Origin: Chloroflexota bacterium
GTDB lineage: Bacteria > Chloroflexota > Chloroflexia > Chloroflexales > Roseiflexaceae
DNA: 33,585 nt
Direction: 5' to 3'
Assembly: GCA_030550675.1 (NCBI GenBank)
Contig: JAUQOW010000020.1
Span: forward strand, 1 to 33,585
This document shows, piece by piece, positions 3,319 to 28,945 of the stretch. The stretch's first letter is position 1. Every line of letters begins with the position of its first letter. The position numbers and the translations under genes were made by a program. The notes under the pieces are model-generated. The model did not search any database. It was not told the DNA's origin and saw only the letters and a program-made list of their open reading frames with translations.

Positions 3319-5163
<1,845 letters not shown>

Positions 5164-5474
5164 GAGCGCTTCCTTTCTGAAGGTTTCCTGAAAAAACTGA
5201 CGCAACGGCGCAAAAAAGACGCAAGGGAGCGTTGGATTGATTGCGAGGATCTGCGCTTTTGCGCCTTCTTGCCAGCCCGTTCGAACGAACACCGAGAAAT
5301 ACAACCGGCATATTGTCGTTGCCAGACCGGCCGTCCGCACTGGTTCAGGACGCGCAAGCCCCGCTGGAGCTCGCACAAGCCAGTGCTGATGAAGGCACAG
5401 ACGTACATCAGCAGAACAGCGCCGCCGGGGTGCTCGCTCGCCAGGTGCGGACCAGTAATTGAATCCGGCAGACC

Positions 5475-5850: not shown

Positions 5851-6130
5851 GGCGACCCGGTCGCCCCCGACTGGCGCAATCCGCTGTGCTGATTGGAACG
5901 ACACCTGGCTGCGTGGGGCATACGCAGCGCTACGTGCCGAATAGGAAGACGCTCGCTGCGCTCCATTTGTGCCACCCGTCGCCGGATGGTTTTGGTGGAG
6001 CGCTCACAGGCGGCGGCGCGCCTGGGAGGCATCCGCTGATCTCTCGATGTTCCGCCGATCGTATCGGCGTTAGCCCTGTCGCGCGACAGGGAACCTCCGC
6101 CTCGTCAACTGCGGGAGATTTATCCCGCAG
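5851..6130. repeat. Cluster of five hairpins in a non-coding region
   Basis: GGCGAC-CCG-GTCGCC (5851-5865); GCTGCGT-N7-ACGCAGC (5908-5928); CGCCGAT-CGT-ATCGGCG (6053-6069); CCCTGTCGCGCGACAGGG (6074-6091); CTGCGGGA-GATTTA-TCCCGCAG (6109-6130). Confidence 0.65.
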
Positions 6131-6242
6131 TCCATGCGCTTCTCAATGACCTTTGAGCTGCTCATCACCTCCTGAAGCCCCTGAACGACGTCCCTGCCGG
6201 AAGCATACTTCAGACTGCGCCTCACGTCAAGATCCGGCAGGA

Positions 6243-13180: not shown

Positions 13181-14248
13181 TCACAATACGCCTACATTGG
13201 AGTGATCTCCCAGCACCAGGCGGTATGCCTTTGGTTTGCGCGGCGAGCGTGTCACCTCGACATACCGCCCGATCAGGCTATCCTCCAGGCGGTGCGGGAG
13301 ATCACGAATGACGCAGTGCTCCAGCACAATTGAATGCTCGATCTCAGCGCTCTCAATGACGCAATGGTGATAGATCGACGTAAAGGGTCCAATGTAGGCG
13401 TTGATAATGCGCGTATGTTCACCAATGATCGCCGGACCGCGGATGGTGCTGTTGATGATCTCCGCCCCCTTCTCGATGATCACCTTGCCAATCAGGTGCG
13501 AGTCGCGATCTACGAACCCCTCGACCGACGCTGACATTTCTTCCAGGATCAGACGATTCGCCTCCAGCATATCGTCCTTTTTCCCAGTATCGATCCACCA
13601 GCCGTGGTGGATGTAGGGAAAGACGCGCCGTCCATGCTCCACCAGCCACTGGATCGCATCGGTAATTTCCAGTTCGCCGCGCCACGAGGGACGGATCGCT
13701 TCGACCGCCTCCCAGATGCTGTTGTCGAACATATAAATGCCGACCAGCGCCAGATTCGACGGCGGCTGGCGTGGTTTTTCGATCAGGCGCACGATCTGTC
13801 CTCGCTCGTCGAGCACCGCCACGCCGTATTGCTCTGGCGTGGCAACCTGCTTGAGAACAATTTGCGCATTGTAGTCGCTCGCGCCAAACTGCTGGAGCAG
13901 CGGCGCAATCCCTCCCTGAATGCAGTTATCACCCAGAAACATGACAAACCGGTCATCCCCCAGAAAGTCGCGCGAGATCTTGACGGCATGCGCCAGACCG
14001 AGCGGCTCGTCCTGTTCGATATAGGTAATCCGCACGCCCCAGCGACTGCCATCGCCGACGGCGGCGCGCACTTCGGGTCCGGTGCTGCCGATCACGACGC
14101 CAATGTCTTCGACGCCAGCATCGCGGATCGTTTCAATGACGCGGAAGAGCACCGGCTTGTTGGCGACCGGCACCAGTTGCTTGGCGCTGGTATAGGTGAT
14201 GGGACGCAAGCGAGTGCCTTTGCCGCCGCTGAGAACCAGTCCTTTCAT
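13181..14248 (-). CDS. Glucose-1-phosphate thymidylyltransferase (RmlA long-form-like)
   Basis: MKGLVLSGGKGTRLRPITYTSAKQLVPVANKPVLF, FLGDNCIQGG, C-terminal hexapeptide-like repeats; ATG at 14248. Confidence 0.92.
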   Translation of the reverse strand: MKGLVLSGGKGTRLRPITYTSAKQLVPVANKPVLFRVIETIRDAGVEDIGVVIGSTGPEVRAAVGDGSRWGVRITYIEQDEPLGLAHAVKISRDFLGDDRFVMFLGDNCIQGGIAPLLQQFGASDYNAQIVLKQVATPEQYGVAVLDERGQIVRLIEKPRQPPSNLALVGIYMFDNSIWEAVEAIRPSWRGELEITDAIQWLVEHGRRVFPYIHHGWWIDTGKKDDMLEANRLILEEMSASVEGFVDRDSHLIGKVIIEKGAEIINSTIRGPAIIGEHTRIINAYIGPFTSIYHHCVIESAEIEHSIVLEHCVIRDLPHRLEDSLIGRYVEVTRSPRKPKAYRLVLGDHSNVGVL

Positions 14249-14351
14249 AAACCCTTCCTCACGTAAGTGGATTCTATGAGCGCCTTCCACATTGTAATGG
14301 CGCCAGATGATCGATGGATAACAGTCACAGCGCCGCCCCCCACACACAGAT

Positions 14352-17940: not shown

Positions 17941-18025
17941 TGGTGGGGACGGAGGGACTCGAACCCTCACGGATTGCTCCACAAGTTCCTAAGACTTGCG
18001 CGTCTGCCAGTTCCGCCACATCCCC
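17941..18025 (-). tRNA. tRNA-Leu (anticodon UAG), CCA encoded
   Basis: Minus strand GGGGATGTGGCGGAACTGGCAGACGCGCAAGTCTTAGGAACTTGTGGAGCAATCCGTGAGGGTTCGAGTCCCTCCGTCCCCACCA; anticodon arm CAAGT-CTTAGGA-ACTTG, T-loop GGTTCGAGTCC, long variable arm. Confidence 0.97.
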
Positions 18026-18229: not shown

Positions 18230-18877
18230 ATGCCTGACGAGCGTGGCAGCGCAGATGAACTTGAGGTGCGATACTACCCTAACCTGATCGGCCGCCTGTA
18301 TCTTATCAGCCTCGAGGACGTCATGGGGCGAAATGGCGTCAATGCGCTGTTGAACCTGGCCGGAACCCGGCATCTGGTCAATAACTACCCGCCGAACAAC
18401 CTCAAGCGAGAATTTCCGTTCTCGGATTTGTCGGCGATCTCCAAAGCGACGGAGACGATGTACGGGCCACGCGGCGCGCGCGGCATGGAACTGCGCGCCG
18501 GACGCTATGCGTTCAACCTGGGGCTGAAAGAATTCGGTCCGCTCCTCGGTATGGCTGACCTTGCGCTGAAACTTATGCCGATGACGATGAAGATGAAGAT
18601 CGTCCTCAACGCCACGGCGCAGACGTTTGATCGCTTCAGCGATCAGCCATCCCATGTTGAGGAGCGTAAAGGTCAATTCCTCTACATTATTGAAAAATGC
18701 CCGATCTGCTGGGGGCGCAAGTCAGATCGCCCCGTCGGGCATCTGGCGCAGGGCATTCTCGAAGAAGCGCTCACCTGGGTAACTGGCGGTCACTCGTTCC
18801 GTATCGAGCAGACGGAGTGCCAGGGCATGGGGTGCGAACGCTGCATCTTCGCCATTGACAAAGACCCGATCGATTAG
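18230..18877 (+). CDS. V4R (4-vinyl reductase-type) domain protein
   Basis: MPDERGSADELEVRYYPN..; C-terminal CPICWGRK..GILEEALTWVTGGHSFRIEQTECQGMGCERCIFAIDK; AAGGAG RBS. Confidence 0.8.
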   Translation: MPDERGSADELEVRYYPNLIGRLYLISLEDVMGRNGVNALLNLAGTRHLVNNYPPNNLKREFPFSDLSAISKATETMYGPRGARGMELRAGRYAFNLGLKEFGPLLGMADLALKLMPMTMKMKIVLNATAQTFDRFSDQPSHVEERKGQFLYIIEKCPICWGRKSDRPVGHLAQGILEEALTWVTGGHSFRIEQTECQGMGCERCIFAIDKDPID

Positions 18878-19100
18878 TCGTCGCACTGTAACCGTTGTTT
18901 TGGAGGTGCAAACGTCTTGCACAACGCCGACAGGACGGGCACGCTCCAAAAGATGACGCACAAACGCACGTTCGATAGTCCGGCTCTGTCTGTCGGGCTA
19001 GGCGCTACGTGTGTTTTTGTGTTTTCGGAAGCTGAAAAGAACGCCGTCTCCGATACGCTTTGTTGACCCCGGTGCGTAATTCGACTGTAATCTCATGCCC

Positions 19101-19136
19101 TTGAAGGGTCGCTTCCCTATTCTGTATAGTACAGAA
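19101..19136 (+). promoter_or_regulatory. Putative promoter with overlapping operator-like dyad
   Basis: TTGAAG-N18-TATAGT; TTCTGTA-TAG-TACAGAA (19120-19136) is a perfect dyad over the -10. Confidence 0.5.
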
Positions 19137-19200
19137 CAGAGCCTGGAAGGAGGTTCTGTCTCTCCTTCAATTCCGGCTATCGTTGCGGGGAGTCGCATCT

Positions 19201-20601
19201 ATGAAACGCATCATCATCCGTGAGCGCACGCTCATCCCCCCGTTCGGCGAGCCGGCGCGCGATCTGCGCGTGCTGAATAAACCGCTCTGGCTGTTGCAAC
19301 GTGATCTGCTCGCTCCCTATTGTCGCGGCGCATTGGAAGTCGACTCGCTTGAGGAGGTGCCGCCGGTCAATGAAGAACTGCTCGTCTACCGCGATAATCT
19401 GTTCTTCAATGAGTATCTGATCGACGCCTTCATCCGCGAAGCGCGCAGGACCGGGCGCGCCTGCCGCATCGCCTTTGCACGCGACGATGCGGCTATCGTC
19501 ACGCATGCCCTGCATCTCCAGGAAGGCATCCGCCTCGATGAACGCCATGGCGTATATGTCGCCGACCTGTTCTACTATCCGCGCGGTCCCGATGCGGACC
19601 CGGAGCCGCTGGTGATCGATACGCTGCCGCGCGAAATGGGGTACTACCATATCCCCAGTTACATGGCGCGCCATGGCGACCTGGTGTTTCAGGTGCCCAT
19701 GCGCGCGTTCCTTTCCATCGAAAATTGGGTGCATGTCTTTCTGGCGAATTCGCCATTCGGCGTCTTCTCGTGGGGACGGATCCACGAGCAACTGGTCGAG
19801 GAAAGCTGGAAAGAGAAAATTGCAGTATCATTGACGACGCTGGCAGAACGCCTCAACCCGTTCGCTCCGCCCTGGCGCAACCATTTCCTGGCATGCTCGC
19901 GCCTGGTGAAGGTCGGCAAAAATTGTTCGATCGATCCGACGGCGATTATTCACGGACCAACGGTCATCGGCAATAATGTCTATATCGGCGCTGGCGTTGT
20001 GATCACCAACAGTTTGATCGGCGACAACGTCAACATCATGCAGGGGTCGCAGATTATGTTGAGCGTGGTGAGCGACCGCTGCTACCTGCCATTCAACGCC
20101 GGGCTGTTTATGACGACGCTGATGGAAAACTCGATGGTCGCCCAGCTGAGTTGTCTGCAGTTATGCGTGGTTGGTCGGAACACGTTCATCGGCGCCGGGA
20201 ATATTTTTACGGACTTCCATCTGCTGAATCGCCCAATTCGCACCTTCCACCGCTGGAAGGGCGCCGAAAAACCGGAATTGGTCGAGGTGGGATTGCCGGT
20301 GCTGGGATCCGCCGTCGGTCATAATGTGAAGATCGGCAGCGGTTTTGTCGTGTACCCGGCACGTATGATAGAATCAAATACCGTGCTGCTCTACTCGGCG
20401 CCGGATACCGTCATCGGGCACAACGTGGTTCATCTGGCAGGCGACGATGAGAGCGATGCCGATGAGCACGGCGACCTGCGCCGCACGATCTACCGCTGGC
20501 CTCAGCGGTACGACCCCGCTACGCACAACGGCGACGATGAGCCGCACGGTCCGATACTGGTATCGATGTCGCTTGCGCAATCCGTTCCTGCGCGACGCTA
20601 G
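19201..20601 (+). CDS. Left-handed beta-helix / GlmU-like (NTP_transf_4-like) protein
   Basis: Hexapeptide repeats NCSIDPTAIIHGPTVIGNNVYIGAGVVITNSLIGDNVNIMQG; N-terminus RVLNKPLWLLQRDLLA; start MKRIIIRERT at 19201. Confidence 0.78.
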   Translation: MKRIIIRERTLIPPFGEPARDLRVLNKPLWLLQRDLLAPYCRGALEVDSLEEVPPVNEELLVYRDNLFFNEYLIDAFIREARRTGRACRIAFARDDAAIVTHALHLQEGIRLDERHGVYVADLFYYPRGPDADPEPLVIDTLPREMGYYHIPSYMARHGDLVFQVPMRAFLSIENWVHVFLANSPFGVFSWGRIHEQLVEESWKEKIAVSLTTLAERLNPFAPPWRNHFLACSRLVKVGKNCSIDPTAIIHGPTVIGNNVYIGAGVVITNSLIGDNVNIMQGSQIMLSVVSDRCYLPFNAGLFMTTLMENSMVAQLSCLQLCVVGRNTFIGAGNIFTDFHLLNRPIRTFHRWKGAEKPELVEVGLPVLGSAVGHNVKIGSGFVVYPARMIESNTVLLYSAPDTVIGHNVVHLAGDDESDADEHGDLRRTIYRWPQRYDPATHNGDDEPHGPILVSMSLAQSVPARR

Positions 20602-20612
20602 GAGGCTGTTTC

Positions 20613-21557
20613 GTGAGCAAAGAGAAAATCCTGGTCGTCGAAGACGCCCCTGATATTGCCAGTCTGCTCAAGATTTATTTTACGTCGCAGGGGTATGAAG
20701 TCATGACCGCGATGCGCGGTCAAACCGCCCTCGAAATCTGCCGGAAGACGCCGCCCAACCTGGCATTGCTCGATGTCAATTTGCCCGACATGGAAGGGTA
20801 TGAAATCGGCAAGGCGCTGCGCCAGAGCGCACGAACCCGCCATATTCCGATCATCTTCCTGACGGCGCGCGGCGAAAAGCAGGATCGGCTCAAAGGTCTC
20901 GGCGAGGTTCAGGCGGAGTATTACATTGTCAAGCCCTTCGACATTGAAGAGGTGCATACGATCGTCAAGGGCGCCCTTGATCGGGCGCGCCAGAAGAACC
21001 TGACCCATCCGGTCACGAACCTGCCGACCGCCGAGTTGATCAATGAGCAGTACCGCACCCTGCTCGCCAGCAGCGGTTGGGCGCTGGCGCTGGTGCATAT
21101 CAACGGCTTTGATGCGTTTACCCAGTCCTATGGCGCAATGGTCGGCGAAGAGGTGCTGAAATTCACCGCCCTGCTGATCAGCGAGGCGATCAACGATCTG
21201 GGGCGCCCCGAAGATTTCGCCGGGCAGATGATTGTTGGTCCGTCGTTCGTGATTACGTCGACGCCTCAAGCCATTCAGGCGATCTGTCAGCGATTGTGCG
21301 ACCGGTTCGATGCTGATATTGGGCTGCACTACGACTATAAGGATCGTCGCAACGGGTATATCACGGTCCAGAGCGAAGACGGCAGCGTGCGCCAATTGCC
21401 GTTGATGTCGCTCTCGATCGGCGTTCTGACCAGTGATGACGGTCCGTTCTACGATATTCGCGAGCTCAGCGAAAGCGTCGAGGAGGTTCGCCAGCGCGCC
21501 GTTGTTGAAGCGCGTGAGCAGGGGCGGAAAAGCCACATGGTCATCGGGCGGGCATGA
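20613..21557 (+). CDS. Response regulator with degenerate GGDEF-like C-terminal domain
   Basis: REC: ILVVEDAPDIASLL, LLDVNLPDMEGYE, FLTARGE, VKPFD. C-terminal HPVTNLPTAELINEQ..WALALVHINGFDAF looks GGDEF-like but lacks GG(D/E)EF. GTG start with GGAGG. Confidence 0.85.
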   Translation: MSKEKILVVEDAPDIASLLKIYFTSQGYEVMTAMRGQTALEICRKTPPNLALLDVNLPDMEGYEIGKALRQSARTRHIPIIFLTARGEKQDRLKGLGEVQAEYYIVKPFDIEEVHTIVKGALDRARQKNLTHPVTNLPTAELINEQYRTLLASSGWALALVHINGFDAFTQSYGAMVGEEVLKFTALLISEAINDLGRPEDFAGQMIVGPSFVITSTPQAIQAICQRLCDRFDADIGLHYDYKDRRNGYITVQSEDGSVRQLPLMSLSIGVLTSDDGPFYDIRELSESVEEVRQRAVVEAREQGRKSHMVIGRA

Positions 21558-21611
21558 AAGGTCGGCGGTCTGGCTGTACGCCGTCGCTGGCATGACGACA
21601 GGTCCCTGTCA

Positions 21612-24600
21612 ATGGACGCCACAACTGTTACGTCACCACACGTTCGAGCATGGGAACTTCTCACAGGACTGGCGGAGTACGGCCGATCCATCAGCGGCGA
21701 TGCGCAGTCCCTGGTGCAACGTGTCGCCGAACTGGCGCAGGATCATCTGCCCTGTCCGTGGGGCGTGATCATGGTGCAGGTCGGAGGGGCGCCGGTCAGC
21801 GCCGGTTGGGGCGTCAGCCCAGAGTGGCGTCAGCGCCTGATTGAACGCGCCATTCCTGTTCCAGCCCAAACGATCGAAGCGCCCCTCTACTATCGTGATG
21901 AACCTGCTGGCATGTTGTGGCTTGGCATGCCAGCCGCTCATCATGAACAACTCGCCCCTGGCTTTCTGACAACCCTGCGGCATCAGATCGAACTGCTCGT
22001 CGCGCTGCTGCACCACGACTCTGGACCGACCGTTGAAACGCCGGACGAGTCGCGCCAGCGCCAGTACGCCAGTGAGATGGATACGCTGCGCGCGTTGAGC
22101 GCGCATCTGGGGTCTGGTCTTGCGCTGGAAGAACTCTCGCCTGCGGTGGTCCGGTGGGCGCAGCAACTCATTCCGTGCGCCGCCGCCGCCCTCAGCCTGA
22201 TCAACCCGGATACAGGCCTGCTCGAACCGGCGGCGACCATCGGCGCTCCGTTCGCATCGCCGGCGTCCGTCCCGGAGGACAACCGTCAGGCGCTGAATGA
22301 ATGGGTCGCCCGTCATCGGCGGACGATTCGCCTCTCCGATATGCGCTACGCTCCGGTGCCTCCGGCACTCGACGCCTTCGCCGATGGGCGCCCCATTCGT
22401 GCATATATGGCGATCCCGTTGCAGGTGGGGAATCAGGTGGTCGGCGTTCTCGAGTTGCTGGACGTTCAGCCCGACCGTTTCGGCGAACACGAAGAACGCC
22501 TGATCGCCATTCTGGCGGCGCAGGCGGCGCAGGCTGTCGCCAGCGCGCAACGCTACGCTGAGGACGACGAACATCTCCAGAGTCGCCTGCTGCAACTGCG
22601 CTCGTTGCAACGCATCAGCCGTGAACTGACCTCCACGCTCTATCTGCACAATATTCTCGACTTTGCGCTGAAAGAGGCGTTGCGAGCCACTCACGCCACC
22701 CAGGGGTACGTTGCACTGCGCGGCTATGCGGTGGAGCGCGAAGCGTTTGAGATGGAGCAATCCGATGCCTTTGGCGTAGCGGTTTCACCGCAAACGTATG
22801 TCGCGCTGCGATCCGTCGGCGAGAATGGACCGGTGCGCCTGATCGTCGCTGAAGGATATGCGCCTGGCGATCACGACCGCCTGATCAATGCGACGCTGGA
22901 TGGCGCCAACGTCATCGCTGCCAGCGTGATGGCGCGCGGCGAGGCGCGGATTGTCGAGAAACTGACCGATGACGATCGCCTGGCGGCGATCGGACCGGCG
23001 CCAGCATCGACGCTGGCAGCGCCGATCTATTATGAAGAACAGGTCATCGGCGTCATCAATCTGCACAGTACGCGGGCGCGCGCTTTTAATCGCGATGCGC
23101 TCGATTTCATTCGCGCCGTCGCTGATCAGATCGCGCTGGCGATTGGCAACGAAGAACGATACCATGAACAGCGCCGCCAGCGCGACCTGCTGGCGCAACG
23201 CGCAACGACGCTCAATGAGGTGCTGCGCATTGGGCAGGAAATGCGCGCCGACCGGTCGCTCGATGACGTGCTTGAACAGATCGCCTTCAGCGTCGCCGAG
23301 ACTGCGCGTTTCCGGTCGGTTGCGTTTTACCTGATCGATAACGATAACGATAACGATGAGAGCGCAACCGTCTCGCTCGTCGCCGCCGCCGGGCTGCCGC
23401 TCGCCGAAATTGAGCGCCTGCGTCGCCGTCATCTGCCGGTATCCGTGATCGAACAACTGCTCGATCCGCACTATCGTATCGGTCGGAGCTTTTTTGTGCC
23501 CGGTCAGCGCATACGGGAACTGGTCGACGGCGCGGATCTGCGCTTGCTCTCGCCCCTGGAGACAGAAGGAACGCGCACGCCGGATGAGTGGCAGATCGAT
23601 GATGTCCTGATCGTCCCGCTCTACCGAAGCAAGTCGCGGTTGGTGGGGATTATGGTGGTCGATGAGCCGTATGACCGTCAACTCCCCACCCCTCGCTCTG
23701 TCGAGACGCTCGAGATTTTCGCCGATCAGGCGGCGATCGCCATCGAAAACGCCATGCTGCTGCGCGAAGCGCGGTCCCAGGCGAAGCAGATGGCGTCTCT
23801 CTACCGCGCCAGCGCTGCAATGGTCTCTTCGCTCGATCTCGACAGTTTGCTCGACCGGATTTATGCCGAGATCGAGGCGCACGTCGGAACGCCGTCGTTC
23901 TGCTTTGTGGCATCGTACAATCCGTTCCGTGATGAACTCTGCTTCGAGATGTTCAAGCGAGAAGGCGCCACGGCAGCGCATCTGCACAAGCGCATCATTC
24001 CGCGCAGCGGGTTGAGCGGTTGGGTGATCGAGCACCGGAAAATGCTCTACATCGAGGATTTTTCGGAAGAACAGGATCGCCTGCCGGTCACGCCGGTCAA
24101 CCTGGGAGAGCCGATTCGATCGTGGGTGGGCATTCCGCTCATGCGCCAGAACCAGCCCATCGGCGTGCTCTCGGTGCAGAGCTTTGAGCCGCGTGCGTTC
24201 AGCGCACGCGACGTGCAGTGGCTGTCGACTGTCGCCAATCAACTTGCGGTTGCGCTGTCGAATGCGCAACTCTTCGCAGAGCGCGGGCAGCGCATCAACG
24301 AACTGAACCTGATCAATCACATTGGTCACATCACCAGTTCGACGTTTGATATTGAGCAGATGTTCGCTGGCGTCTACGAGGCGCTGGCTGGCTTCCTTCC
24401 CATCGATGGATTCGCTGCCTGCGTCTATGATGCCAACAGCGATCAAATAGGTCAGACCTTCGTTGCCAGCGCCGGAAAGCGCCTGTATCGGCGCATGAAC
24501 CGCGCGCCTTCCCCCAATGGTCTGATCCGGCGCGTGGTCGATGCGCAGCAACCGATCCGACTGGACGATCGGCGGGATGCGGCGGTGGATGCCTGCCTGG

Positions 24601-27600
24601 ACGCCGCGCTTTCGGGAGAAACGGATTGTGTGTTCGCCTCGTGCGTCGGCGTGCCCCTCGTCGTCGGCGAGCGCGAGGTTGTCGGCGTGCTGGTGCTGCA
24701 AAGCGGCATGCCGCGCGCGTATGGCGATCGCGAGCTTGCGTTCCTGAATACCGTCGCAGTGCAGGTGGCGCTCGGCGTGCAGAATATTCGGCTGTTCACC
24801 GAAGCGCGCGACAGCGCAATGGCGTTACAGCGCAAGGTCAGCGAACTATCGGCGCTGCTGCGGGCTGCACAGGTCCTCAGTTCTTCGCTCAAACCGGACG
24901 ACGTGTTGCAATCGCTCATGGCGATTGTTGCCGAACAGTTGCAGGTCGATACCGTCGCGCTCTGGAAGATCGATGCCGACGGATTCCTGACGCCAGCCGC
25001 CATGCAGGGCATCCCGATCGATATGGCGCGGGTGCTGCGCGTGCCAATCGGCAGAGGATTGACGGGGCGCGTCGCTGCCAGCGGTCAGCCGCTGGTGGTG
25101 GCAAATGTTGAGGAAGATGGCACGTCGCTCTATCCGCAGTTCAACCGTGAGCATCAATACACCTCATTTATGGGCGTTCCGGTTGTCTACCGTGAACAGA
25201 CCATCGGCGTCCTCAGCGTGATGACCGTGCCGCAGCGCGCGTTCAGCGCCGACGAGGTCACGTTGCTGGCAGGCATCGCCGATCAGGCGGCGATTGCGCT
25301 CGAAAATGCGCGATTGTTTGCCGAACGCGAGCGCCGGATCGCTGAGTTGACGGCGTTAAACCATATCAGTCAGGCGATCAATGTTTCGCTCAGCACCGAG
25401 GAGATTCTGGAGGCGCTCCACCGCGGCATGAGCGAAGTGCTCGACACGTCCCAATCGTTTATTGCCCTGTACGACGCTAAAACGCGCCGCCTGACATTCC
25501 CGCTGGTCTATGAAGATGGCCGTCGTGCGCCTGAGAGAGAAACGGAGGTTATTGTTCTCGACGATCTGGCGGGCGGCTTGACGCCTACGGTGATTCTCGA
25601 GCGTCGTCCGCTCCTGTTGCGCACCCAGCAGGAGGTTGACGCCGTGGCGCTGCACCCCGCCGATCTCAACAAGCCGCCGATCTGTTCCTGGCTGGGTGCG
25701 CCGATCATTCAGGGCGATGAGGTCCTTGGCGTCCTCAATGTCCAGAGTTATGAGCCAGGACGGTTCGACGAGGATGCACAGCGCTTCTTAATGACGGTCG
25801 CCAATCAGGCGGCTATCGCGTTGAGCAATGTTCGCCTGTTCCAGAGCGAACAGGAGCGCCGCCGGGTGGCGGATACGCTGCGCGAAGTCGCGCAGATGAT
25901 GACCGGCGTGCTGGCGCTCGACGATATTTTTGGCATGATCCTCGACCAGTTGGCGCGGATCGTTCCCTATGACACGGCTTCGCTCATGCTGCGCGAAGGG
26001 GACATGTTGCGCATCGTGGCGGCGCGCGGCTTTGACGAGTCGATCCGCGAGCGCGTTGAACATCTCCAACTGCGCGTCGATGATGATCCGTCGCTGGCGC
26101 GGGTGCTGCACACTCGCCGTCCCTACGTTCTGATTGATGCGCGCGAGGCGCCGCCATCCAGCGTCGATGATGGCACGGAACACATCCGCGGCTGGATCGG
26201 CGCCCCGCTGCTGCTCGGCGATGACGTCATCGGCATTCTCAACGTCGACAGCACAACCGTCGGCGCCTACGACGAAGAGGATGCACAACTCGCATTCGCG
26301 CTGGCAAGCCAGGCGGCGCAGGCGATCCGCAACGCGCGCCTGTTTGATGAGGTGCGGCGCTTTAACGCAGAACTTGAGCAACTGGTCAGTGAACGCACAG
26401 CGGCGCTCCAGGAAGCCAACGCCCGCCTCGCCGCCGAACGCGACCGGCTACAGGCGGTGCACAGGATTACATTGGAACTGACTGCCAGCCTTGACTTGCA
26501 AACGACCCTGAACCGCACCCTGGCGCTCGCGTCTGAAGCGGTCGGCGCACGGCGCGGCTCGATTATGCTCAAGGACCTCCAGAGCGGACAGCTCATCTGC
26601 CGGGCTGTGCTCAACATTGATGGAACCGTTGAGTCGAAGCATATACCGATCACTTTTGAGAAGGGATTGGGACTTTCGGGATGGGTCATGCACCATCAGG
26701 AAGCGGTCTGTATCGCCGATGTGCGCAACGATGCGCGCTGGCTGCGCGAAGAAGGACGCGCTGAGGAAGTGCGGTCGGTCATCGCTGCGCCGTTAATGAC
26801 CCAGGACGGACCGCAGGGAGTGTTGATTCTGACCAGCCCGCAAGTCAACTTCTTTGGTCAGGATCAACTGCAACTTCTGGCGACTATTGCCAATGAAGTG
26901 GCGATCGTCATCCATAACGCCATGCTCTACACGATTATCAATGAAATCGCCACAGAGCGCGGCGAGTTGTGGTCACAGCAGCGCGAAGAGAATAGCAAGA
27001 ACCAGGCGATCCTCCAGAGCCTAGGCGAAGGGGTCATTGTCGTTGACGAAGATCAGAACATCGTGCTCTACAATGCAGCCGCCGAACAGATCCTGGGCAT
27101 TCCAGCCCGGTTTGTCGCCAATAAGCCGCTGGCGCGGATCGCCGAGTACTGTGAGGACGACCAGGGCGCCGAACGCGCTCGACGCATCTACGAAGGGCTG
27201 CGTCAGGGGTTGCAGGCGCTTGCTGAAGCGCAAAAGAACCATAACCGGGTGCTGGAGCTGCCAGAACCAACGCAATCGATTGTCTTGAATTTCGCACCCT
27301 GGGTAGGACCGCGCAATGCGATCTACGGCAGCGTGGTCGTGCTCCACGATATTACCCGCGAAGTCGAAGCCGACCGCGCAAAACGCGAGTTTATTTCCAA
27401 CGTCTCGCACGAGTTGCGCACCCCGCTGACATCAATCAAGGGATATGTCGATCTCCTCATGCTCGGCGCCAGCGGACCGCTCAATGAAAGTCAGACGTCG
27501 TTCCTGAACGTGGTCAAGAGCAACACGCACCGCCTCATGAACCTGATCAACGATATTCTGGAGATCGGACGGATTGACGACAACAAGGTCAAGCTGAACT

Positions 27601-28109
27601 TTGAGAGCGTCTTCATCGGCGATATCTTTGAGGAAGTCAGGAAGATGCTGCGCGCCGAGATTGAACGCAAGCGCCTGTCGTTCAGCATTGAGGTTGCTGA
27701 ACAGACGCCGCCAGTGATGGCTGATGAGACGCGCCTGACCCAGGTGGTGCTGAACCTGGCGTCGAATGCAGTGAAGTACACCTACCCTGAAGGCATCGTC
27801 AAGCTGCGCGCCGGACTGAACCCCGCCGGATTGCTCCAGGTTGATGTTATCGACAATGGCGTCGGCATTTCACCCGAACAGCAGCAACATCTCTTCCGTC
27901 GCTTCTACCGCGCCGACAACCCGCTCCGCGATGAAGCCGGCGGCACCGGTCTCGGGTTGTCGATCGCCAAGTCGTATGTCGAAATGCACGGCGGTCAGAT
28001 GTGGGTAGAAAGTGAACCGGGCAAAGGCAGCACCTTCAGTTTTATTATCCCGCTGACCCAGCCAGCGTCAGAGTCCGAAACGGAAGCGACGAAGCAGAGT
28101 CGATCATGA
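21612..28109 (+). CDS. Multi-GAF (about 10) - PAS - HisKA - HATPase_c hybrid sensor histidine kinase
   Basis: Repeated GAF endings (e.g. GVLSVQSFEPRAFSARDVQWLSTVANQLAVALSNAQLFAE), PAS LGEGVIVVDEDQNIVLYNAAAEQILG, H-box FISNVSHELRTPLTSIKGYV, N/G boxes NLASNAVKYT, DNGVGIS, GTGLGLSI; no evident TM. Confidence 0.95.
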   Translation: MDATTVTSPHVRAWELLTGLAEYGRSISGDAQSLVQRVAELAQDHLPCPWGVIMVQVGGAPVSAGWGVSPEWRQRLIERAIPVPAQTIEAPLYYRDEPAGMLWLGMPAAHHEQLAPGFLTTLRHQIELLVALLHHDSGPTVETPDESRQRQYASEMDTLRALSAHLGSGLALEELSPAVVRWAQQLIPCAAAALSLINPDTGLLEPAATIGAPFASPASVPEDNRQALNEWVARHRRTIRLSDMRYAPVPPALDAFADGRPIRAYMAIPLQVGNQVVGVLELLDVQPDRFGEHEERLIAILAAQAAQAVASAQRYAEDDEHLQSRLLQLRSLQRISRELTSTLYLHNILDFALKEALRATHATQGYVALRGYAVEREAFEMEQSDAFGVAVSPQTYVALRSVGENGPVRLIVAEGYAPGDHDRLINATLDGANVIAASVMARGEARIVEKLTDDDRLAAIGPAPASTLAAPIYYEEQVIGVINLHSTRARAFNRDALDFIRAVADQIALAIGNEERYHEQRRQRDLLAQRATTLNEVLRIGQEMRADRSLDDVLEQIAFSVAETARFRSVAFYLIDNDNDNDESATVSLVAAAGLPLAEIERLRRRHLPVSVIEQLLDPHYRIGRSFFVPGQRIRELVDGADLRLLSPLETEGTRTPDEWQIDDVLIVPLYRSKSRLVGIMVVDEPYDRQLPTPRSVETLEIFADQAAIAIENAMLLREARSQAKQMASLYRASAAMVSSLDLDSLLDRIYAEIEAHVGTPSFCFVASYNPFRDELCFEMFKREGATAAHLHKRIIPRSGLSGWVIEHRKMLYIEDFSEEQDRLPVTPVNLGEPIRSWVGIPLMRQNQPIGVLSVQSFEPRAFSARDVQWLSTVANQLAVALSNAQLFAERGQRINELNLINHIGHITSSTFDIEQMFAGVYEALAGFLPIDGFAACVYDANSDQIGQTFVASAGKRLYRRMNRAPSPNGLIRRVVDAQQPIRLDDRRDAAVDACLDAALSGETDCVFASCVGVPLVVGEREVVGVLVLQSGMPRAYGDRELAFLNTVAVQVALGVQNIRLFTEARDSAMALQRKVSELSALLRAAQVLSSSLKPDDVLQSLMAIVAEQLQVDTVALWKIDADGFLTPAAMQGIPIDMARVLRVPIGRGLTGRVAASGQPLVVANVEEDGTSLYPQFNREHQYTSFMGVPVVYREQTIGVLSVMTVPQRAFSADEVTLLAGIADQAAIALENARLFAERERRIAELTALNHISQAINVSLSTEEILEALHRGMSEVLDTSQSFIALYDAKTRRLTFPLVYEDGRRAPERETEVIVLDDLAGGLTPTVILERRPLLLRTQQEVDAVALHPADLNKPPICSWLGAPIIQGDEVLGVLNVQSYEPGRFDEDAQRFLMTVANQAAIALSNVRLFQSEQERRRVADTLREVAQMMTGVLALDDIFGMILDQLARIVPYDTASLMLREGDMLRIVAARGFDESIRERVEHLQLRVDDDPSLARVLHTRRPYVLIDAREAPPSSVDDGTEHIRGWIGAPLLLGDDVIGILNVDSTTVGAYDEEDAQLAFALASQAAQAIRNARLFDEVRRFNAELEQLVSERTAALQEANARLAAERDRLQAVHRITLELTASLDLQTTLNRTLALASEAVGARRGSIMLKDLQSGQLICRAVLNIDGTVESKHIPITFEKGLGLSGWVMHHQEAVCIADVRNDARWLREEGRAEEVRSVIAAPLMTQDGPQGVLILTSPQVNFFGQDQLQLLATIANEVAIVIHNAMLYTIINEIATERGELWSQQREENSKNQAILQSLGEGVIVVDEDQNIVLYNAAAEQILGIPARFVANKPLARIAEYCEDDQGAERARRIYEGLRQGLQALAEAQKNHNRVLELPEPTQSIVLNFAPWVGPRNAIYGSVVVLHDITREVEADRAKREFISNVSHELRTPLTSIKGYVDLLMLGASGPLNESQTSFLNVVKSNTHRLMNLINDILEIGRIDDNKVKLNFESVFIGDIFEEVRKMLRAEIERKRLSFSIEVAEQTPPVMADETRLTQVVLNLASNAVKYTYPEGIVKLRAGLNPAGLLQVDVIDNGVGISPEQQQHLFRRFYRADNPLRDEAGGTGLGLSIAKSYVEMHGGQMWVESEPGKGSTFSFIIPLTQPASESETEATKQSRS

Positions 28110-28945
28110 GCGCGATCCATATCGACAACCGATTAGTGCACTATGAGGTCGTCGGTCGCCGCGGCGCGCCGGTGATCTTCCTGCACAGCTGGCTTGGATC
28201 GTGGCGCTACTGGTTGCCGACGATGGAGCACGCCGCCGAACGGTATCGCACGTTCGCCATCGATTTCTGGGGGTTTGGCGAGTCGGACCGACGCGACGGC
28301 GCATTTTCCATTGCGGAGTACGTCGATCTGGTCATGCGCTTCATGAACCAGCTCGGCATTGCGAGAGCCAGCGTCGTCGGGCACGGATTGGGCGGAATGG
28401 TTGCGCTCCGCGCCGCCAGCCAGCATCCGGACCGCTTCACCCGCCTCATGATCGTCAGCACCCCAATCCAGGGATCACAGATTCAAAACCATATTCGTCC
28501 CAGCGCCCTGTCGCGCCTTTTCAATCGCGTCGCGCCCGGCAATGTCTGGACGCGCCTGATGCGGCAGCTCAATGTCGATTATCCGCAGATTTTGAACGAA
28601 ATTATCGAGGATACCGATAGCCTTTCTGAAACAGTGGTGCAACGTGTGATCGCGTCAGTCGCCGAGACCGATCTGCGCGGAGACCTGGAACGCCTGGAAA
28701 CGCCGCTGCTGGCGGTCTTCGGCGAAAAGGACGCGATTGTGTCGCCTGACCAGGCGCGTTTTCTGCACGATGACCACGCTTCAATGCAACAGGTCATCAA
28801 ACTGCCGCGATCAAACCATTTCCCCTTTCTCGACCAACCCAACGTTTTCAACCGCCTGCTGATGGATTTTCAAGAGAGCAAGGGCACGCAGGTAGAGATC
28901 AAGACCGAGTGGCGACGACGGGTGAGCCAACTGGAGTATATCTGA
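28106..28945 (+). CDS. Alpha/beta hydrolase-fold protein with Ser-to-Gly nucleophile elbow
   Basis: VIFLHSWLGSWRYW, IDFWGFGESD, VVGHGLGGMVAL (expected GxSxG), FGEKDAIV, RSNHFPFLDQP; start overlaps the kinase stop by 4 nt. Confidence 0.92.
   Translation: MSAIHIDNRLVHYEVVGRRGAPVIFLHSWLGSWRYWLPTMEHAAERYRTFAIDFWGFGESDRRDGAFSIAEYVDLVMRFMNQLGIARASVVGHGLGGMVALRAASQHPDRFTRLMIVSTPIQGSQIQNHIRPSALSRLFNRVAPGNVWTRLMRQLNVDYPQILNEIIEDTDSLSETVVQRVIASVAETDLRGDLERLETPLLAVFGEKDAIVSPDQARFLHDDHASMQQVIKLPRSNHFPFLDQPNVFNRLLMDFQESKGTQVEIKTEWRRRVSQLEYI

Follow-up and report, generated by a model that had tools for sequence, protein, structure and literature searches.

The window analyzed here is a stretch of 33,585 nucleotides (nt) from a Roseiflexus genome (family Roseiflexaceae) of the phylum Chloroflexota (GenBank assembly GCA_030550675.1, contig JAUQOW010000020.1), and its forward strand carries a set of co-directional genes that includes a response regulator, a giant multi-GAF histidine kinase, and an alpha/beta-hydrolase homologue lacking its catalytic nucleophile. 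The initial annotation, made from the sequence alone, had proposed an undescribed signaling operon of four closely spaced same-strand genes. The four reading frames, their spacing, and their linkage were borne out, with the correction that the unit is larger than four genes: a V4R gene upstream (18230–18877) belongs to it too, and other classes add more genes. The genes in the window are the following.

18230..18877, forward strand: V4R-domain protein of the Bet3/TRAPP-related fold family, 215 amino acids (aa); Pfam V4R 42 bits vs a cut-off of 31
19201 (ATG)..20601, forward strand: left-handed beta-helix protein with hexapeptide repeats and an N-terminal domain resembling nucleotidyltransferases, 466 aa; Pfam Hexapep
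20613..21557, forward strand: response regulator with an intact receiver and a degenerate GGDEF domain (VGPSF), 314 aa, GTG start
21612..28109, forward strand: giant histidine kinase with nine clear GAF domains, PAS, HisKA, and HATPase_c, 2165 aa
28106..28945, forward strand: ABH2, an alpha/beta-hydrolase-fold pseudo-enzyme (Abhydrolase_1), 279 aa; nucleophile Ser replaced by Gly94, His238 and Asp209 kept

The junctions measure 11 nt between the hexapeptide and regulator genes, 54 nt between regulator and kinase, and −4 nt between kinase and ABH2, an ATGA overlap at which the two genes are probably translationally coupled. The sequence AGGAGG (20600–20605) lies ahead of the GTG start of the regulator, and AAGGAG precedes the ATG of the V4R gene. 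Ten GAF domains had been claimed for the kinase; nine are clear, and the tenth, its N-terminal segment, only looks like a degenerate GAF by eye.

A scan of 84,980 species genomes for the regulator, which alone defines the range given here outside the Chloroflexota, returned Chloroflexota orthologues at 43–96% identity, with the window copy 94–96% identical to that of Roseiflexus metagenome-assembled genomes. All good full-length matches belong to the Chloroflexota except one contig labeled Gracilibacteria (L029), which is probably mis-binned. Across 56 related Chloroflexota loci (L009–L064), where most missing genes fall at contig or locus ends, the regulator is accompanied by the hexapeptide gene upstream in 52, the multi-GAF kinase downstream in 54, and an alpha/beta-hydrolase gene in 40. 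In 39 loci ABH2 follows the kinase, and in 29 of these the junction measures exactly −4 nt; median gaps in relatives are 14 nt (hexapeptide–regulator) and 92 nt (regulator–kinase). In Roseiflexus, Kouleothrix, Herpetosiphon, L058, and the Anaerolineae loci the hexapeptide gene is preceded by the V4R gene, which in Chloroflexaceae-type genomes is located elsewhere. Herpetosiphon and some Anaerolineae-type genomes (L150, L151, L146, L153) have a receiver-only protein of ~124 aa between kinase and ABH2, which is missing from the Roseiflexus operon. This gene order is far above chance. The outcome that would have refuted the initial annotation, loss of linkage in relatives, is clearly not seen: the genes stay together across Chloroflexales, Herpetosiphon, and Anaerolineae-type genomes. 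We found no description of the core gene set in open-access full text; since the literature search covered that text only, the novelty proposed in the initial annotation is provisional. Taken together, the comparisons support the operon as a co-conserved, previously undescribed signaling unit that includes a pseudo-hydrolase. In Kouleothrix aurantiaca COM-B (L014) the operon looks degraded, with a stop in the hexapeptide frame, a short kinase, and no ABH2.

The promoter with a dyad that had been noted before the hexapeptide gene is present, and both elements are conserved in six Roseiflexus-group loci. Three elements lie in this region.

19076..19093, forward strand: direct repeat GTAAT-N6-GTAATCT, candidate OmpR/PhoB-type activator site just upstream of the promoter
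19101..19130, forward strand: promoter TTGAAG-N18-TATAGT, kept in relatives
19117..19139, no strand: dyad CTATTCTGTATAGTACAGAACAG covering the −10 box, which may serve as an operator in the Roseiflexus group; core kept in six loci

In the six loci the block GTAATTCGACTGTAATCTCATGCCCTTGA plus CTGTATAGTACAG is nearly letter-for-letter constant and its flanks have diverged. Of 51 loci, 30 carry the exact GTAAT-N6-GTAAT repeat ahead of the hexapeptide gene (0.005 expected by first-order shuffling) and 43 carry it when a single mismatch is allowed, usually followed by CTTG and TATAGTA; the same 51-locus scan did not find it in Herpetosiphon or in L060/L061. Its 11-base spacing is typical of OmpR/PhoB-type sites. 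The promoter ahead of this gene is retained throughout the Chloroflexales. Because the exact direct repeat has one site in this genome and the 13-bp dyad core one exact copy, control seems specific to this operon, and a regulon sharing either element was rejected on the same grounds. A LexA-type operator was also rejected for the dyad, CTGT-N5-ACAG having the wrong spacing for the Escherichia coli type.

The label of pseudo-hydrolase proved correct and general. We aligned 77 distinct sequences of ABH2, the hydrolase homologue beside the kinase, and of a paralogue from the same lineages, ABH1, which is free-standing or beside a small GTPase gene. The nucleophile column is Ser in 34/34 ABH1 rows, among them one distant hydrolase (L240), and Gly (40), Ala (2), or Asp (1) in ABH2, so that Ser is gone from 43/43 kinase-linked copies. 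The elbow motif reads GHSxGG in ABH1 and GHG[LM]GG in ABH2, the latter departing from the G-x-S-x-G of catalytic serine hydrolases. In both paralogues together the triad His is kept in 77/77 sequences and the Asp in 76/77, and a shared Trp/Asp-rich pocket signature is retained (stretches H-Y-E, H-x-W-x-G-S-W-x-x-W, and D-F-W-G-F-G). As the Ser/Gly split follows the paralogues and the other residues are kept, the loss of Ser in ABH2 is specific and old, and the pocket is strongly constrained. This pattern supports a binding role for ABH2, whose ligand may be related to the substrate or product of ABH1. A structure model of ABH2 (predicted local distance difference test [pLDDT] 79) matches many hydrolases with no clear nearest, plant DAD2/KAI2-type proteins being among the matches.

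The kinase and receiver have the residues of an orthodox two-component system: the HisKA His and the N and G boxes are kept in ~39 of 42 aligned kinases, and the receiver Asp, Thr, and Lys are conserved. The sole PAS domain found in the kinase (~1798–1914) sits beside HisKA, the N-terminal part consisting of GAF domains, which number 5 to 17 in orthologues. The GAF array seems to evolve fast, since the kinase of L056 is 52% identical to that of the window vs 87–90% for the remaining operon proteins, in a different genus. In the regulator the phospho-acceptor Asp54 is kept and, as the initial annotation had recognized, the GGDEF domain is degenerate: VGPSF replaces the motif, is conserved in orthologues, and leaves the Pfam GGDEF score below threshold (21.9 vs 23.8 bits). 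A PleD-like diguanylate cyclase was therefore rejected, GG[DE]EF being replaced.

The hexapeptide protein has ~80 invariant columns in 33 sequences. In Foldseek it comes closest to a sugar-1-phosphate nucleotidylyltransferase that carries a beta-helix, though the model used (pLDDT 62) is too weak for firm fold claims; a GlmU-type bifunctional enzyme was rejected (39 bits vs an equivalog cut-off of 367), as was LpxD, with a score far below cut-off. For the V4R gene, BchJ 4-vinyl reductase was rejected (TIGR02019, 28.2 bits vs 74.3), and close relatives occur in Herpetosiphon, which is not known to be phototrophic. V4R and the TRAPP subunit Bet3 are homologues, and V4R proteins bind hydrophobic molecules (PMC2253512).

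Genomes outside the Chloroflexia place these genes in a longer co-directional cluster (L060, L061, L143–L146, L153) comprising DUF4388, small GTPase, ABH1, V4R, hexapeptide, acyl-reductase-like, regulator, kinase, in some a receiver-only gene, and ABH2; GTPase, V4R, regulator, kinase, and ABH2 stand together in L143–L146 and L153. In each of the 19 genomes of this type examined the GTPase gene clusters with ABH1, joined by the hexapeptide gene in 17 and by V4R in 14. The GTPase has intact G1, G3, and G4 motifs (GxxxxGKT, GTPGQ, NKQD), conforms to the MglA-type Ras-like pattern, and has Arf-like GTPases and MglA as its nearest solved relatives (best PDB matches). The acyl-reductase-like protein is related to acyl-acyl carrier protein (ACP) reductase and PigE; in Chloroflexales its domain forms the C-terminal part of proteins of 680–840 aa (L239, L240), for whose N-terminal extension no Pfam family matched. 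A Pfam search likewise gave no name for a gene adjoining ABH1 (L142:9071–9763).

Presence and absence of the parts run in parallel. A strong match to the hexapeptide protein (E < 1e-90) occurs in 53 of 301 Chloroflexota genomes, all 53 with V4R, and three of the 301 have V4R without it. GTPase and ABH1 are both present in 37 of 39 chosen genomes, the exceptions being two members (G012, G015; ~3-Mb genomes) of one reduced Roseiflexaceae genus, g8. These lack the GTPase, both hydrolases, and the reductase, and the one member tested also lacks V4R and the hexapeptide protein, an apparent secondary loss of the module.

We tentatively favor, at somewhat less than even confidence, a two-component module with a ligand-binding pseudo-hydrolase that acts on a small-GTPase/V4R/hexapeptide machine. 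ABH2, having lost its nucleophile and kept the rest of its pocket, would probably be a non-catalytic ligand-binding subunit or co-receptor in contact with the GAF-array kinase. The kinase would integrate the ABH2 signal with its GAF and PAS inputs and then phosphorylate the adjoining regulator, which, as its GGDEF domain is non-catalytic, would most likely signal by protein contact. Its likely targets are the V4R and hexapeptide proteins together with the Ras-like GTPase and its partner DUF4388 (the latter two in trans in Roseiflexus), so that the GTPase machine would be the output of the operon. The set hints at an as yet unknown lipid- or membrane-linked signaling pathway. A bolder version, which we regard as doubtful, has V4R (TRAPP/Bet3 fold) and DUF4388 regulating the GTPase under a two-component kinase fed by a non-catalytic hydrolase-fold receptor derived from a catalytic hydrolase that the pathway retains.

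Several points weigh against the favored mechanism. The concordance in presence and absence is confounded by shared ancestry. The functional link in Roseiflexus rests on orthology because in the window genome the GTPase/DUF4388 pair (contig C97), ABH1 (C132), and the reductase-like fusions (C27 and C389) sit at other loci. The V4R found in the clusters of Anaerolineae-type genomes is paralogous to the window copy (~36–46% identity vs ~48–54% for another copy). The GTPase and kinase parts are separable, since L152 and L154 have GTPase, ABH1, and hexapeptide genes without an adjoining kinase. Finally, hydrophobic segments occur near the N-terminus of some kinases (L146, L153), and in those lineages the input is therefore perhaps at the membrane.

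It is possible, if on the unlikely side, that the genes form a biosynthetic or lipid-modification cluster, in which an envelope compound containing acyl or sugar groups is made or trimmed by the hexapeptide, acyl-reductase-like, and ABH1 proteins and bound by V4R, the two-component pair tunes its production, and the GTPase is a spatial regulator. The kinship of the reductase to acyl-ACP reductase and PigE, the nucleotidyltransferase-like fold of the hexapeptide protein, the intact ABH1 triad, and the binding of hydrophobic molecules by V4R proteins (PMC2253512) would all fit such a pathway. However, the hexapeptide protein scores far under the GlmU and LpxD cut-offs, several genomes keep the rest of the set without the reductase, and no acyl carrier or glycosyltransferase is consistently linked at the loci compared.

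We consider it improbable that the regulator, kinase, and ABH2 on one hand and the GTPase, ABH1, and V4R on the other are separate systems, neighbors only in some lineages, with the output of the operon lying elsewhere, for example in gene expression via another regulator. Their different loci in Chloroflexales and the occurrence of one part without the other alongside in L152 and L154 speak for such independence, but the V4R–hexapeptide pair bridges both: in Roseiflexaceae and Herpetosiphon it adjoins the regulator and kinase, in other classes the GTPase. The two parts are also concordant in presence and absence.

The initial annotation had offered RsbQ–RsbP of Bacillus subtilis as a precedent, and in both systems the gene of an alpha/beta-hydrolase is indeed tightly coupled to that of a sensor protein. 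Moreover, PAS modules related to that of RsbP are also found joined to histidine kinases (PMC3183031), which would be in keeping with an ABH2 that makes or supplies a small molecule to the sensory domain of the kinase. The analogy is nonetheless weak, because RsbQ requires its catalytic triad Ser-Asp-His (PMC3183031) and the ABH2 family is without the nucleophile in 43/43 copies, and we regard an RsbQP-like sensor as very improbable. RsbP combines an N-terminal PAS with a PPM phosphatase, whereas the partner here has 5–17 GAFs with HisKA/HATPase_c, and membership in the RsbQP family was rejected for the lost triad and the absence of an N-terminal RsbP-type PAS from the kinase. Mere genomic inertia without common function is hardly credible. 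Unrelated housekeeping genes such as uvrA, which are also conserved neighbors in Chloroflexaceae and Herpetosiphon, speak for it, but the order is kept across classes, with a 4-nt overlap of kinase and ABH2 and a conserved promoter specific to the operon.

In Roseiflexus genomes G001 and G003 a second paralogue of the small GTPase lies no more than ~8 kb from a paralogue (33% identity) of the regulator with degenerate GGDEF, with loci at G000:C97:2011–2526 (L215) and G003:C1:4901210–4909211 (L217), which hints at a second regulator–GTPase pair. Elsewhere in the window, a tRNA-Leu gene (17941–18025, reverse strand) lies just upstream of the V4R gene, and an NTP_transferase protein with a weak LbH match (13181–14347, reverse strand), 5 kb from the hexapeptide protein of the operon, probably belongs to ordinary sugar nucleotide metabolism. 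A glmS ribozyme/riboswitch (5948–6151, reverse strand, 86.4 bits) is located upstream of a GlmS-type gene (3319–5376, reverse strand), at least 570 bases from its start, an unusually long distance.

Apart from a few reduced Roseiflexaceae, every sampled Chloroflexales and Herpetosiphon genome has the core gene set, as do many of the Anaerolineae type; the reduced genus offers a natural comparison for phenotype. ABH1 and ABH2 pair an enzyme with a naturally occurring pseudo-enzyme that is tied to a kinase, and the evolution of a hydrolase into a receptor is therefore directly testable. The gliding machinery of Chloroflexus is listed as unknown (PMC7004002), and a GTPase module of the MglA type might be a candidate for its control.

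Among known systems, the actinobacterial conservons (CvnA–F, or AGPS) resemble this module in joining a histidine kinase and a Ras-like GTPase to a sensory accessory subunit acting as modulator of the kinase (PMC13343842, PMC4316618); Streptomyces thereby provides a precedent for the favored reading, its CvnA (histidine kinase) and CvnD (small GTPase) occurring together with CvnF, a distinct protein that stimulates the kinase (PMC13343842). Here DUF4388, V4R, hexapeptide, the hydrolase pair, and the response regulator are found instead, and the GTPase is not adjacent in Roseiflexus. Scanning the genes of the window and of related clusters showed neither a roadblock (CvnB) match nor a CvnC gene, and conservon membership was rejected on the missing roadblock match and on a GTPase adjacent only in clusters outside the Chloroflexia. 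The MglA/PATAN polarity modules of Myxococcus and Thermus likewise place a small GTPase beside a DUF4388/PATAN protein, and PATAN genes lie near some group 1 and 5 MglA genes (PMC4316618); no MglB was seen in the present clusters, which have V4R, hexapeptide, and hydrolase proteins in addition.

Since V4R is the prokaryotic relative of Bet3 (PMC2253512), its clustering with a Ras-like GTPase recalls the TRAPP/Bet3–Rab system of eukaryotes and the TRAPPC3 of Asgard archaea, and this gene-cluster link in bacteria bears on the origin of TRAPP–Rab control. The present cluster differs in being bacterial, and no longin or roadblock subunits were seen in it. Operons of this V4R and GTPase kind are generally absent in the Asgard archaeon MK-D1 (PMC10933270).

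For ABH2 the closest counterparts in kind are the non-catalytic alpha/beta-hydrolase regulators ABHD5, the NDRG family, and GID1, in which a hydrolase fold with a damaged triad serves binding or regulation. Unlike them, ABH2 has a bacterial histidine kinase as its partner and has lost the nucleophile alone, keeping His and Asp. If true, the bolder version of our reading would provide a bacterial parallel both to TRAPP–Rab control and to the hydrolase-fold hormone receptors of plants.

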